This document shows positions 20,970-27,357 of a stretch of DNA of 37,055 nt, in pieces; position 1 is the stretch's first letter; every line of letters starts with the position of its first letter. The notes below the pieces were generated by a model. The model made no database searches. It was not told the origin of the DNA and saw only the letters and a list, made by a program, of their open reading frames with translations. The DNA comes from an uncultured Anaerolineales bacterium (lineage in GTDB: Bacteria; Chloroflexota; Anaerolineae; Anaerolineales; UBA4823): assembly GCA_903872065.1 (NCBI GenBank), contig CAIQJJ010000392.1, positions 1 to 37,055 on the forward strand, written 5' to 3'. The position numbers and the translations under genes were made by a program.

Positions 20970-22034
20970 ATGATCACGATTGACGGTTCTCTTGGCGAGG
21001 GCGGCGGACAGGTGCTGCGCAGTTCGCTGACTCTTTCCATCCTCACCCACCAACCCATCCATCTCACCCACATCCGCGCCGGGCGCGCAAAACCGGGTTT
21101 ACAGCCGCAGCATTTGCAAGCAGTGAAAGCCGCGGCGGCGGTGTGTGCGGGAAGTTTCGAGGGCGGACAGGCCGGCTCGCAAACGCTGCGCTTTTGGCCT
21201 GGCGAAGTGCGGCCTGGGCGCTATACCTTTGAGATCGGCACCGCTGGCGCGACATCATTGGTCCTTCAAACCATTTTTCTGCCCCTAACTTTTGCGGATG
21301 GGGATTCAACAGTGACGATCCGCGGCGGCACCCATGTACCTTGGAGTCCAAGTTTTCATTACCTCGATTGGCAATGGCTGCCCCACCTGCGTCAGATGGG
21401 CTGCGCGGCCAGCCTGCAACTGACCCAGGCCGGCTTTTACCCGCGAGGCGGCGGCGAGATCAAAGCGGTCATTCAGCCAGCCGGGCCGCTCAAATCCTGG
21501 GTGTCGCTGGAACGGGGGATGCTGCAGCGTATCAGCGGCCTCTCGGCGGTCGCCAACCTGGATGAAAGCATTGCCCAGCGACAAAAGCTGCAAGCCTTGC
21601 GACGGTTGGAACCGATTTGCCAGATGAGTAAAATTCGCAGTGAAACCCTTCCTTCGCCAGGCAAAGGTACGACGATCATCCTACTGGCTGAATTGGAGCG
21701 CGCCCGGCTCTGCGCCTCAGCCCTGGGAGAACCCGGCAAACGGGCGGAACGCGTCGCTGATGAGGCCGCCGAGGCCCTGGAGCGCTCTTTGAATTCTAGC
21801 GCCACGGTAGATGAACACCTGGCGGATCAACTGCTGCTGCCGCTGGCATTGGCTGCTGGTCGCTCACAATTTTGCACACCGCGTGTGACACAACATTTAC
21901 TGACCAATGCCGCAATCATCCGGCAATTTCTACCGGTTCAGATTGATATTCGTGGGGAAAGCGGACAAGAAGGTATAATTTCGGTCAGTTCTCTATCCCC
22001 TTCAAACGAAAGCCTCTATGATTCCACGTCCTGA
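20970..22034 (+). CDS. rtcA: RNA 3'-terminal phosphate cyclase
   Basis: This 354-aa enzyme uses ATP to convert RNA 3'-phosphate ends to 2',3'-cyclic phosphates through a covalent enzyme-AMP. Family blocks are IDGSLGEGGGQVLRSSL (4-20), GQxGxxS-like GQAGS, FEIGTAGATSLVLQTI (87-102), FYPRGGGEI (156-164), HLADQLLLPLALA (283-295) and QHLLTN (308-313). His309 is the expected nucleophile, at the same number as in the E. coli enzyme. The usual neighbours rtcB and rtcR are absent. It lies downstream of a tRNA gene and overlaps the GyrA-C-like gene by 17 bases, so the two are co-translated. The C-terminal 20 residues are Ser-rich and not conserved. Confidence 0.95.
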   Translation: MITIDGSLGEGGGQVLRSSLTLSILTHQPIHLTHIRAGRAKPGLQPQHLQAVKAAAAVCAGSFEGGQAGSQTLRFWPGEVRPGRYTFEIGTAGATSLVLQTIFLPLTFADGDSTVTIRGGTHVPWSPSFHYLDWQWLPHLRQMGCAASLQLTQAGFYPRGGGEIKAVIQPAGPLKSWVSLERGMLQRISGLSAVANLDESIAQRQKLQALRRLEPICQMSKIRSETLPSPGKGTTIILLAELERARLCASALGEPGKRAERVADEAAEALERSLNSSATVDEHLADQLLLPLALAAGRSQFCTPRVTQHLLTNAAIIRQFLPVQIDIRGESGQEGIISVSSLSPSNESLYDSTS

Positions 22035-23097
22035 CCTTACTCACATTCCTCCCGCCGTGCGGGAATATATCGAAGCCCTCGAAGCCGAGGTGGAACGACT
22101 GGGCGGTAAAGCCAGCAGCCGGCCCAAGCCGCGCCCGGCGGTAAATTTCACTGCTCCCGAAGAAGAAGAAGTTCCTCCCCTACCGCCGTTGGCGCCCGAT
22201 GAGCCTCCGACCACAGTTAACCTGATCAGCATGACGGGAAACGGTCTCGCCAAGCGCACCTTGCGCCACCTGTACGGGCGGCAGCGGCGCGGCGGGATGG
22301 GCATCTTTGACCTGGATGCGCCAGCGGACGACCCGGTGGCGCTGCTGACTCTGGCTGAGAGCAGTCAGAGCTTACTGCTGTTTACGAACCTGGCGCGCAC
22401 GTTTCGGCTGCCCGTCAATCTGATCCCGGAGGAAGCGGTGCGCGCCCGCGGGCAGTTGATTACCGCCAAGATGACGCTGCAAGAGGGGGAACACTTTGTA
22501 GCGGCCCTGCCAGACGAAGCTCGCGGGGCAATTGCGCTGGTCAGCCAGGAAGGCTTTGTGCGCTATTTGAGACATCACGTCTTTGGGGAATATATGAAAC
22601 CGGGGGCGGCGATGTTCGACGCGCGCAAATGCGGCGAACTGGCCAGCGTCTGCCGCACGCCGGGCGACGCTGAACTGCTGATTGTGACGCGCCGTGGCAA
22701 AGGCATTCGTTTCTCAGAAAAATTGGTGCCGCCGCAGGGAGGGCCGGGCATTCGCCTGGAGACGGGCGACACAGCGACGGCGATTGTCTCGGTGGATGAA
22801 GACAGCCGCGTCTTCTTAGGCGATGCCGAGGGCCGCGGCACAATCCGCTTGATGGCAGGATTTGCCGCCAACAAAGCGGCCGGCGGCGGAGGAAAGGCGA
22901 TCATGAACAGCGATTGCCTGATCAGCGCCGCGACCGTTGAAGAAGGCGGCGAAATCTTTCTGATCTCTCGCCTGAGCAAGATCATCCGCTTTATGGCGGA
23001 CGAGACGCCGGCCAAAGAAAGCACAGTGCAGGGCGTTAACTGTATGATGCTGCGCAGCGATGAAGTGCGCGCCCTGTTGACAACGGTGGTTGTCTAA
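22018..23097 (+). CDS. Stand-alone GyrA C-terminal beta-propeller-like protein
   Basis: This 359-aa protein resembles the DNA-wrapping C-terminal domain of gyrase subunit A but has no cleavage/religation domain. Residues 10-30 form a short coiled coil, and 31-65 are a proline- and acid-rich linker. From 66 onward there are repeated propeller blades, for example VNLISMTGNGLAKRTL (67-82), IALVSQEGFVRYL, LLIVTRRGKGIRFSEKLVP and IFLISRLSKIIRF. The stretch QRRGGMG at 89-95 differs from the GyrA box QRRGGKG at one position. It may wrap or bend DNA, or modulate gyrase, but no partner is encoded here. It starts inside the rtcA 3' end and stops three bases from the convergent pstB1 stop. Confidence 0.85.
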   Translation: MIPRPDLTHIPPAVREYIEALEAEVERLGGKASSRPKPRPAVNFTAPEEEEVPPLPPLAPDEPPTTVNLISMTGNGLAKRTLRHLYGRQRRGGMGIFDLDAPADDPVALLTLAESSQSLLLFTNLARTFRLPVNLIPEEAVRARGQLITAKMTLQEGEHFVAALPDEARGAIALVSQEGFVRYLRHHVFGEYMKPGAAMFDARKCGELASVCRTPGDAELLIVTRRGKGIRFSEKLVPPQGGPGIRLETGDTATAIVSVDEDSRVFLGDAEGRGTIRLMAGFAANKAAGGGGKAIMNSDCLISAATVEEGGEIFLISRLSKIIRFMADETPAKESTVQGVNCMMLRSDEVRALLTTVVV

Positions 23098-23100
23098 AGA

Positions 23101-23865
23101 TCACCCCATGCGCCCGGTAATGTAATCTTCAGTCAGTTGTTGGGCCGGATTGGTGAAAAGGCGCTGTGTGAGGCCGACTTCCACCAATTCGCCCAACCAA
23201 AAGAAGCCGGTGATGTTCGAGACGCGCCCGGCTTGCTGCATATTGTGAGTGACAATGATGATGGTATATTCACGCTGCAGTTCGGCGATTAAGTCCTCGA
23301 TATGGCCGGTAGCCACCGGGTCAAGCGCCGAACATGGCTCATCCATCAGAATCACCTGCGGCTGAACCGCCAACAAGCGCGCAATGCACAAACGCTGCTG
23401 CTGACCCAGCGAAAGGCTGAGTGCATCTTGCTTCAACTGGGTTTTGACTTCATCCCACAGCACGGCGCGTTTCAAAGAATTTTCGACGATGGCATCCAGT
23501 TCCGCACGGGAACGGGTGAGACCCAGGACGCGCGGCCCATAAGCAATATTATCGTACACCGATTGCGGGAATGGGTTCGGTTTTTGAAAAACCATGCCAA
23601 CCTTGCGGCGCAGTTCTGCCAGGTCTACCCCCGGCGCGTAGATATCCTTACCCTCCAGGGTCAATGTACCGACCACGCGTGTTCCAGGAATGGTATCATT
23701 CATGCGATTCAAGCAGCGCAAGAAGGTTGACTTGCCACAGCCCGAAGGGCCGATCAAGGCTGTCACCTGGCGCGGCGGGATGTTCATGGTGATCTGCTTG
23801 AGCGCCTGCTTCGCGCCGTAATAAAAATCCAGTTTGATAGATTGGATAATAGGTTGTGTGTCCAT
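23101..23865 (-). CDS. pstB: Phosphate ABC transporter ATPase PstB (copy 1)
   Basis: This 254-aa ATPase powers phosphate import through PstC/PstA. Walker A is GPSGCGKST (39-47), the Q-loop is VFQKPNPFP with Gln94, Walker B is VILMDEP with D175/E176, and the H-loop is VTHNMQQA with His207. The signature motif reads LSLGQ at 151-155 instead of LSGGQ, so the first conserved glycine is lost. It is transcribed away from pstS and the second pstB. A TACAAT box ends seven bases before the ATG and no ribosome site is present, pointing to a leaderless transcript. See pstB copy 2 for the reciprocal change. Confidence 0.95.
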
Positions 23866-25736: not shown

Positions 25737-26596
25737 ACAAATCTGTGTTTGCCCGCCAGCTCACCCAAAAAATCGGCTACGGGCTGCTGACTTTGCTGAC
25801 GCTGCTGACCGTGCTGCCGATCCTCTATATCATCGGGCGGATTTTGCTGCAAGGAGCGCCGGCGGCGCTATCGTGGGAATTTCTGTTCACCTTTCCGCGC
25901 GATGGCATGAAAGCGGGGGGCATCTGGCCGGCGATCGTTGGCACGATCTACCTGACCCTGGGCACGGCGCTCTTTTCGGTGCCGCTCGGCCTGGGAGCAG
26001 CCATCTACCTTTCCGAATACGCCCCCAACAACCGCTGGACGCGCTTAATCCGGCTGGCGATCATTAACCTGGCGGGCATCCCATCGGTGGTTTATGGACT
26101 GTTTGGCCTGGGTCTGTTTGTTCTATTTCTCAAACTGGGCGTCAGCATCCTGGCCGGCTCGCTGACGCTTTCGATTATGACCCTGCCAGTCATCATCAGC
26201 ACCGCCGAAGAAGCGCTGCGCGCGGTGCCGCAGGCCTTTCGCGTGGTCAGCATCTCGCTTGGAGCGACGAAGTGGCAAACCATCCGGCGGATTGTGCTGC
26301 CCCAGGCGCTGCCGGGCATCTTGACGGGAGTGATTTTGGGATTGGAACGCGCCGCAGGGGAGACGGCGCCGATCCTGTTCACAGCCGCCTCCTTTTTCTT
26401 GCCGCGGCTGCCCGGCTCGCCGTTGGATGCAACCATGGCGCTGCCGTATCATCTCTTTGTCATCTCCACCCAGGTGCCGGGCATGCCCCTGCGCATCCAA
26501 TTTGGCACGGCGCTTGTGCTGCTGGTTTTTGTCTTGAGCATGAACCTGGCAGCCACGGTCATCCGCTCGCGGGCGCGGGCGGCCAGGCAATGGTGA
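25733..26596 (+). CDS. pstA: Phosphate ABC transporter permease PstA
   Basis: This 287-aa permease has six predicted membrane segments. The coupling loop EEALRAVPQAFRVVSISLGAT is followed by KWQTIRRIVLP, and GLERAAGETAPILFTA is the PstA counterpart of the PstC GRAIGET segment. The start codon overlaps the pstC stop (ATGA), so the two subunits are made in equal amounts. The pstB2 gene starts five bases after its stop. Confidence 0.95.
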   Translation: MNKSVFARQLTQKIGYGLLTLLTLLTVLPILYIIGRILLQGAPAALSWEFLFTFPRDGMKAGGIWPAIVGTIYLTLGTALFSVPLGLGAAIYLSEYAPNNRWTRLIRLAIINLAGIPSVVYGLFGLGLFVLFLKLGVSILAGSLTLSIMTLPVIISTAEEALRAVPQAFRVVSISLGATKWQTIRRIVLPQALPGILTGVILGLERAAGETAPILFTAASFFLPRLPGSPLDATMALPYHLFVISTQVPGMPLRIQFGTALVLLVFVLSMNLAATVIRSRARAARQW

Positions 26597-26601
26597 ACCC
26601 A

Positions 26602-27357
26602 ATGAACAAAGTAACCATTGAAAATCTTTCTCTTGAATATTCAGATGGCGCCGAGTCGCTGCGCGGGATCAATCTCAATATCCCGGCCAATGCCATCAGT
26701 GTGCTGTTTGGGCCGGCGGGCGGGGGCAAATCCTCTTTGCTGCGCATCCTGAATCGCTTAAACGATCTGGCGGATGTCAAAACGGTGCGCGGCAAAGTGT
26801 TGATTGATGGGCAAAATATCCTGGAGCCTGGGGTGGATGTGATCGCCCTGCGCCGCAAAGTGGGGATGGTCTTCGCCCGGCCCGTGCCTTTGCCGTTGAG
26901 CATGCGCGCCAACCTGACTTATGGGCTGGAACTGGCCGGGGAACACCGCGCGGCGGTGTTGGCGGAGGCGGTGGAACGCAGTCTGACCCAGGCGGCGCTG
27001 TGGGACGAGGTTAAAGATCGCCTGGATGAACCCGCGGCGGCGCTTTCGGGCGGGCAGCAGCAGCGTTTGTGCCTGGCGCGCGTCCTGGCGCTGCAACCTG
27101 AAATTATTATGCTGGACGAGCCGACTTCGGGCCTGGACCCCATTTCAACCAGCAAGGTGGAGGCTTCGCTGCAAAAGCTGAAAACGCAATACACTATCAT
27201 TCTAGTACCCCATTCTGTCCAGCAAGCAGCCCGCACCGCGGATTACGCCGGGTTCTTCTTGCAAGGAGAGCTGGTGGAGTGGGCGCCGGGCCGAGCGATT
27301 TTTTCCACCCCCCGCGATAAACGCACGGAGGATTACGTAGTAGGACGGTTTGGATAG
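26602..27357 (+). CDS. pstB: Phosphate ABC transporter ATPase PstB (copy 2, divergent)
   Basis: This 251-aa PstB homologue has Walker A GPAGGGKSS (37-45), a normal signature LSGGQ (148-152), Walker B IIMLDEP with D172/E173, and His204 in VPHSVQQA. The Q-loop reads VFARPVPLP, so the Gln that contacts magnesium and the nucleotide is Ala92. Thr in the H-loop stretch VTHNMQ is Pro here. I chose the ATG at 26602 because GGTGA is placed five bases before it; an ATG at 26590 would add MVNP and overlap pstA. It probably joins PstB1 in a heterodimer in which only one ATP site is fully consensus. Confidence 0.92.
   Translation: MNKVTIENLSLEYSDGAESLRGINLNIPANAISVLFGPAGGGKSSLLRILNRLNDLADVKTVRGKVLIDGQNILEPGVDVIALRRKVGMVFARPVPLPLSMRANLTYGLELAGEHRAAVLAEAVERSLTQAALWDEVKDRLDEPAAALSGGQQQRLCLARVLALQPEIIMLDEPTSGLDPISTSKVEASLQKLKTQYTIILVPHSVQQAARTADYAGFFLQGELVEWAPGRAIFSTPRDKRTEDYVVGRFG

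Follow-up and report, generated by a model that had tools for sequence, protein, structure and literature searches.

A stand-alone GyrA-type pinwheel protein with an altered GyrA box and rim in a class of Chloroflexota

The window analysed here, a 37,055-nt stretch of DNA from an uncultured Anaerolineales bacterium (contig CAIQJJ010000392.1, assembly GCA_903872065.1), carries an open reading frame for a free-standing protein that resembles the GyrA C-terminal domain (CTD), and sequence comparison with its relatives shows a genuine gene that is under selection and arose once in its class (Table 1). The product is neither a gyrase subunit nor an unaltered GyrA CTD, and it most likely works as a free pinwheel in the manner of Borrelia Gac. 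That it would serve as a gyrase-independent architectural protein, descended from a GyrA-type pinwheel and bending DNA, seems to us to fall just short of an even chance.

Table 1. Coordinates of the stand-alone gene, its parts and its upstream neighbour in the window
Feature	Position	Strand	Details
GyrA-CTD-like free-standing protein gene	22018..23097	+	359 aa (P0001)
N-terminal helix	22051..22110	+	residues 12-31; AF2; within conserved RPDL...YI..LE segment
Linker	22111..22212	+	residues 32-65; low confidence 33-49; ends E62-P63-P64-T65
Six-bladed beta-pinwheel, GyrA-CTD type	22213..23088	+	residues 66-357; Pfam, NCBIfam, AF2, structural comparison
GyrA-box variant QRRGGMG	22282..22302	+	residues 89-95; QxRxG[MILV]G across the family
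rtcA (RNA 3'-phosphate cyclase)	20970..22034	+	PF01137 1.6e-80; neighbour outside any conserved unit
TATAAT, candidate -10 element inside rtcA	21974..21979	+	by eye; weak

The initial annotation had read the protein as a free-standing GyrA C-terminal propeller with several blades and no catalytic part, and each of these points was borne out. DNA_gyraseA_C is its sole Pfam match (E 1.9e-13, in three stretches), and the NCBIfam gyrA model matches at E 5.5e-30, both far beyond chance, with the latter covered at profile positions 499-791 of 800 only, its last third. The breakage-reunion domain with the catalytic tyrosine of DNA gyrase subunit A is thus missing, and the protein falls among the GyrA-type CTD pinwheels (PF03989 superfamily). 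In a sequence search of the PDB, 13 of the 14 matches were CTDs of GyrA or topo IV, including every match with E < 0.001, and the fourteenth (E 0.14) was unrelated. An AlphaFold2 model built from 18 sequences (mean pLDDT 89.3, pTM 0.80) has six blades in its strand list, from residue 67 to residue 356. When this predicted model was compared with known structures (Foldseek, VIA-align), as had been suggested as a check, the best match was indeed a GyrA CTD, that of Borrelia (1suu; Z 35.5, with 280 residues superposed at an rmsd of 2.0 Å), followed by the E. coli gyrase CTDs (8qdx, Z 32.9; 9gbv, Z 31.5; 8qdx, 9gbv and 9ggq together span Z 31-33), with the ParC CTD 1zvt at Z 16.4 and unrelated propellers below Z 5.

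The segment ahead of the pinwheel is conserved in its own right. Its start codon is backed by relatives, whose starts sit a few residues ahead of the same RPDL motif, and across 39 sequences R4, P5, Y17, L21 and E22 are invariant, as is E62 at the end of the linker, with P63, P64 and T65 nearly so; linker residues 33-49 are disordered in the AF2 model (pLDDT < 50). No Pfam family matched residues 1-65 above cut-off, and DUF1192 (E 0.017-0.042, below cut-off) was rejected. No second copy of the segment was found in the genome, where one weak match (E 1.7), in a frame that reads as histidine-kinase-like, was taken as noise. Of the N-terminal coiled coil that had been proposed as a dimerization element, the helix itself was recovered, but it is just ~20 residues long and its heptad moment lies within that of shuffled sequences (p 0.35). 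The distant members L105-L110 have longer N-terminal helices with a zipper-like pattern, as read by eye. The helix is possibly a dimerization or docking element, and dimerization of the window protein is plausible.

A scan of genome contigs found 17 loci, all in Chloroflexota-type metagenome-assembled genomes and 41-62% identical, of which 16 are Chloroflexota by name and one ('Candidatus Aquidulcis', L009) was placed there by its identity with L059. After removal of nine duplicate loci, 39 non-duplicate sequences align along their full length, dN/dS is 0.08-0.28 in six close-to-moderate pairs (a seventh pair was saturated), and in a FastTree phylogeny of CTDs a single clade with support 0.95 unites all 60 stand-alone sequences, apart from 28 Chloroflexota GyrAs plus that of E. 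coli and from 11 ParCs; an earlier tree with 42 stand-alone sequences had the same topology. Full-length members, purifying selection and a single origin together argue for a real gene. By hand count, 67 of the 396 genomes sampled in the class carry a match above 150 bits. Among 31 closer relatives there are five carriers, which have larger genomes (median 6.4 vs 3.4 Mb, p 0.001), a comparison that ignores kinship and that we do not use as evidence. In a profile search of 400 genomes of the phylum, of which 345 lie outside the class, the matches listed from outside it were GyrA-scale frames or fragments thereof, the best of them at 183 bits vs 501 for the window protein, and a weak stand-alone relative could be hidden beneath them. 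Among the papers listed in searches of the open-access literature, none dealt with a separate GyrA-CTD gene in Chloroflexota. A mobile origin was rejected: viral contigs held no relative, and the 20 rows listed from 31 plasmid and 25 phage records were less than 32% identical and GyrA-like or unannotated.

The likely automatic label of the window protein, 'DNA gyrase C-terminal beta-propeller domain-containing protein', also takes in fragments, for example a 525-aa GyrA-CTD-bearing protein on a Halorhabdus tiamatea plasmid (L125, 2350-3924), which lies near ISH3 and other transposase genes and is perhaps a transposon-truncated gyrA.

The family differs from GyrA at the box. The window's motif had been noted as one residue away from the gyrase box, and it does fit the consensus Q(R/K)RGG(R/K)G, as given in PMC3510516, at six of seven positions, departing from it at position 6. 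In E. coli K-12 GyrA numbering, Q560, R562 and G566 are each present in 58 of 58 distinct members, and position 6 (K565) is M in 48, I in 5, L in 2, V in 2 and T in 1, hence hydrophobic in 57 and basic in none, as against K or R in 26 of the 28 Chloroflexota GyrAs. These counts draw on 20 loci added to the member set, of which one merely repeats L023, and exclude L111, which has no box. This last locus (G390:C235, ~521-1390) lies in a genome that encodes the boxed form as well; its product, another stand-alone protein (374 aa), is more divergent, resembles the pinwheel weakly and begins with a segment like a coiled coil.

The rim was compared along the same numbering with 28 GyrA and 11 ParC sequences of the class, the numbers left once L065 and L066 had yielded no frame under the motif filter. 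In Salmonella, one DNA-holding arginine is named for each of blades 2-6 (612, 667, 716, 766 and 817), and mutating R667 and R716 is reported to have abolished DNA binding by the CTD (PMC7210945). These five positions are arginine in 27-28 of the 28 Chloroflexota GyrAs, whereas among the 58 members position 612 is mostly V or I, with R in two, 716 is a gap in all, and no member has R at 667 (L/M/F/Y), 766 (S/A/E/T/V/Q) or 817 (G/S/A/T); shifts of one or two residues in the alignment could mask displaced arginines in single blades, to which the blade-4 loop, five residues shorter than in GyrA in nearly all members, is less prone. R712 is likewise a gap in 42 of 42 stand-alone sequences, with a single R (L110) in the larger set, and R615 is retained as R or K in 56 of 58. 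The one-arginine-per-blade pattern of gyrase subunit A is therefore absent from the stand-alone family, and of the DNA-wrapping rim expected by the initial annotation, the GyrA-CTD fold and the box, the most constrained part, held up, while a basic residue at box position 6 and nearly all of the per-blade arginines did not.

Other basic residues are specific to the family. R83, K/R273, R277, K286, K293, K321 and R346 are conserved in 42 of 42 sequences, K333 and R88 in 40, and R90 and R142 in 38. By our own count, which rests on 42 rows (40 of them distinct), the columns that are at least 90% basic number 6, 3, 0, 2, 4 and 4 in blades 1 to 6. Blades 5, 6, 1 and 2 are contiguous in the closed disc, and the new invariant basic residues cluster there. 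Total charge cannot separate the groups, since the core has a median net charge of +4 whether the sequence is stand-alone, GyrA or ParC; that of the window protein is near zero (35 K/R vs 34 D/E). So low a charge speaks against DNA binding, although GyrA CTDs of the class share this median. On these sequences the stand-alone family is something other than a GyrA CTD that has merely come free of its enzyme.

It shares with the CTD of gyrase GyrA the fold, the six blades, the position of the box and its Q, R and G residues, and differs from it in having no catalytic domain, no basic residue at box position 6, a shorter blade-4 loop and almost none of the arginines at E. coli/Salmonella positions 612, 667, 712, 716, 766 and 817. 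With the ParC CTD of topo IV it has the superfamily and the pinwheel fold in common, but the ParC CTDs of the class mostly lack the box and have R712, R766 and R817 in 11 of 11, and the stand-alone family has the reverse of this pattern of an absent box and retained blade 4-6 arginines. The nearest experimental parallel, by analogy, is Gac of Borrelia burgdorferi, described as a free GyrA CTD that behaves like a nucleoid-associated protein and represses ospC (PMC10127594). Both are free CTDs made as separate proteins, and the flat, closed, six-blade pinwheel predicted here has the Borrelia structure 1suu as its best match. However, Gac is the CTD of GyrA itself, produced from a start within the gyrA gene, whereas the window protein comes from a separate locus in a genome whose gyrA lies on other contigs, and it is an old paralogue with an N-terminal helix of its own, a box that has changed and a rim that has lost arginines.

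We propose that the closed disc would bind and bend a DNA segment along an arc centred on blade 1 and made of blades 5-6-1-2, through residues that are basic and invariant or nearly so in the family (K79, R80, R83, R88, R90 and R91; R127, R142 and R144; K/R273, R277, K286 and K293; K321, R324, K333 and R346). Blades 3-4 would be released from the DNA, making the wrap shorter than that of gyrase, and two discs linked via the N-terminal helix could hold two bends together. Box loops on every blade have been described as touching the DNA minor groove (PMC11626157); here a strict box is found on blade 1 only, blade 2 is partly basic and displaced lysines lie on blades 5-6, which makes a shorter contact around blade 1 the likeliest arrangement. 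The GyrA box has been described, in the study cited for its consensus, as bending DNA and adding no affinity (PMC3510516), which fits a bending role, though it does not explain the mode of binding. Because the box is kept and the remaining arginine rim dropped, the two become open to separate study: this natural and widespread family separates them, and with it one can ask whether the box alone bends DNA.

The strongest evidence against DNA binding is the loss of both R667 and R716, the two arginines reported to be essential in the Salmonella CTD, and for this reason we keep as an unlikely but serious alternative that the pinwheel now serves as an adaptor for other proteins, in which DNA wrapping is lost and the rim and box hold a partner such as a gyrase or topo IV subunit, a nucleoid protein or a regulator. 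That the whole family has lost the arginines of blades 2-6 and the blade-4 loop, and has M, I, L or V in place of a basic box residue, would suit such an adaptor, as would the invariant non-basic C342 and F314 and the RPDL/YI/LE helix motif, which resemble interaction surfaces. Yet it would have no obvious need for the two other box arginines and the many new invariant basic residues that have been kept, and no conserved gene neighbour suggests a partner.

Two further readings turn on the genome's own gyrase. Contig C234 continues onto C161 via an exact 141-base overlap, and the GyrA so joined is complete (842 aa, box QIRGGRG) and coexists with the window protein; the other 20 carrier genomes that we tested all have a GyrA above the family cut-off. 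The genome also encodes a ParC-like subunit (1018 aa; L057, G000:C244, 1104-4160), whose long tail combines SKGE repeats with sequence rich in alanine, proline and lysine. One might suspect a gyrA remnant in decay, a frameshift or an error of assembly, since the window protein contains the C-terminal third of GyrA and the bin is fragmented into 927 contigs, but the N-terminus kept in all relatives, the low dN/dS, the single clade across many genomes and the intact GyrA leave this reading hardly credible and we rejected it; judged on sequence, the gene is an extra one and no broken gyrA. Improbable too, though far less so, is a modulator that acts in trans on gyrase or topo IV and would tune supercoiling by rivalling or supplementing the GyrA CTDs, whether on DNA or within the enzyme. 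Common descent with the GyrA CTD, the retained box and coexistence with a complete gyrase speak for it. However, no gyrase gene was seen among the examined neighbours of stand-alone genes, the patchy distribution of the trait implies that gyrase does not require it, and having lost the rim arginines the protein would be a poor direct competitor for wrapping.

For a DNA-bending protein, the distribution of HU (PF00216) offers a lead. HU was not detected in the window's genome or in 19 genomes of its family, and it was found in 91 of the 396 genomes of the class, most of which are thus without it. It occurs in 6 of 67 carriers and in 85 of the 329 genomes that lack the stand-alone gene (Fisher p 0.002, with the overlap of six counted by hand), and when only strong HU matches are taken (18 genomes, one carrier) p is 0.33; as the association ignores kinship we treat it as a lead only. 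The stand-alone family is a candidate chromosome organizer for bacteria without detected HU. The fuller version, in which a dimeric protein would bend DNA through a four-blade arc around the modified box and be the main chromosome-architecture protein of Chloroflexota lineages without HU, we regard as rather doubtful.

Genomic context adds little about function. The initial annotation had pointed to translational coupling with rtcA, and the two genes do overlap by 17 nt in the window, but among the 18 loci compared rtcA adjoins the stand-alone gene in one other only (L009), where it ends 92 nt upstream with no overlap, so the arrangement is not conserved and gives no functional hint. The TATAAT inside rtcA could mark a separate promoter for the stand-alone gene; a promoter scan did not recover this element. 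Around the 18 loci we found no conserved operon and the immediate neighbours are unrelated, including rtcA, GH31, a histidine phosphatase, CYTH, RecD2, an amidohydrolase, a protein kinase, an FAD oxidase and others (20 neighbour proteins from 17 loci were identified); operon logic was therefore set aside as a clue to function, and the absence of a conserved operon is what would be expected of a general DNA-associated protein. Downstream in the window, two ABC-ATPase genes that read as pstB-like (23101-23865 on the minus strand, opposite to the stand-alone gene and with its end 3 bases away from that gene's own, and 26272-27357 on the plus strand) bracket an apparent phosphate-uptake cluster. 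Within a single section of the family tree, the stand-alone gene lies beside a CYTH-domain gene and a gene that reads as biotin-carrier-like, in 7-8 loci (L015, L044-L046, L048, L049 and L051-L053; the CYTH domain was identified in L015), which we read as clade-level synteny.
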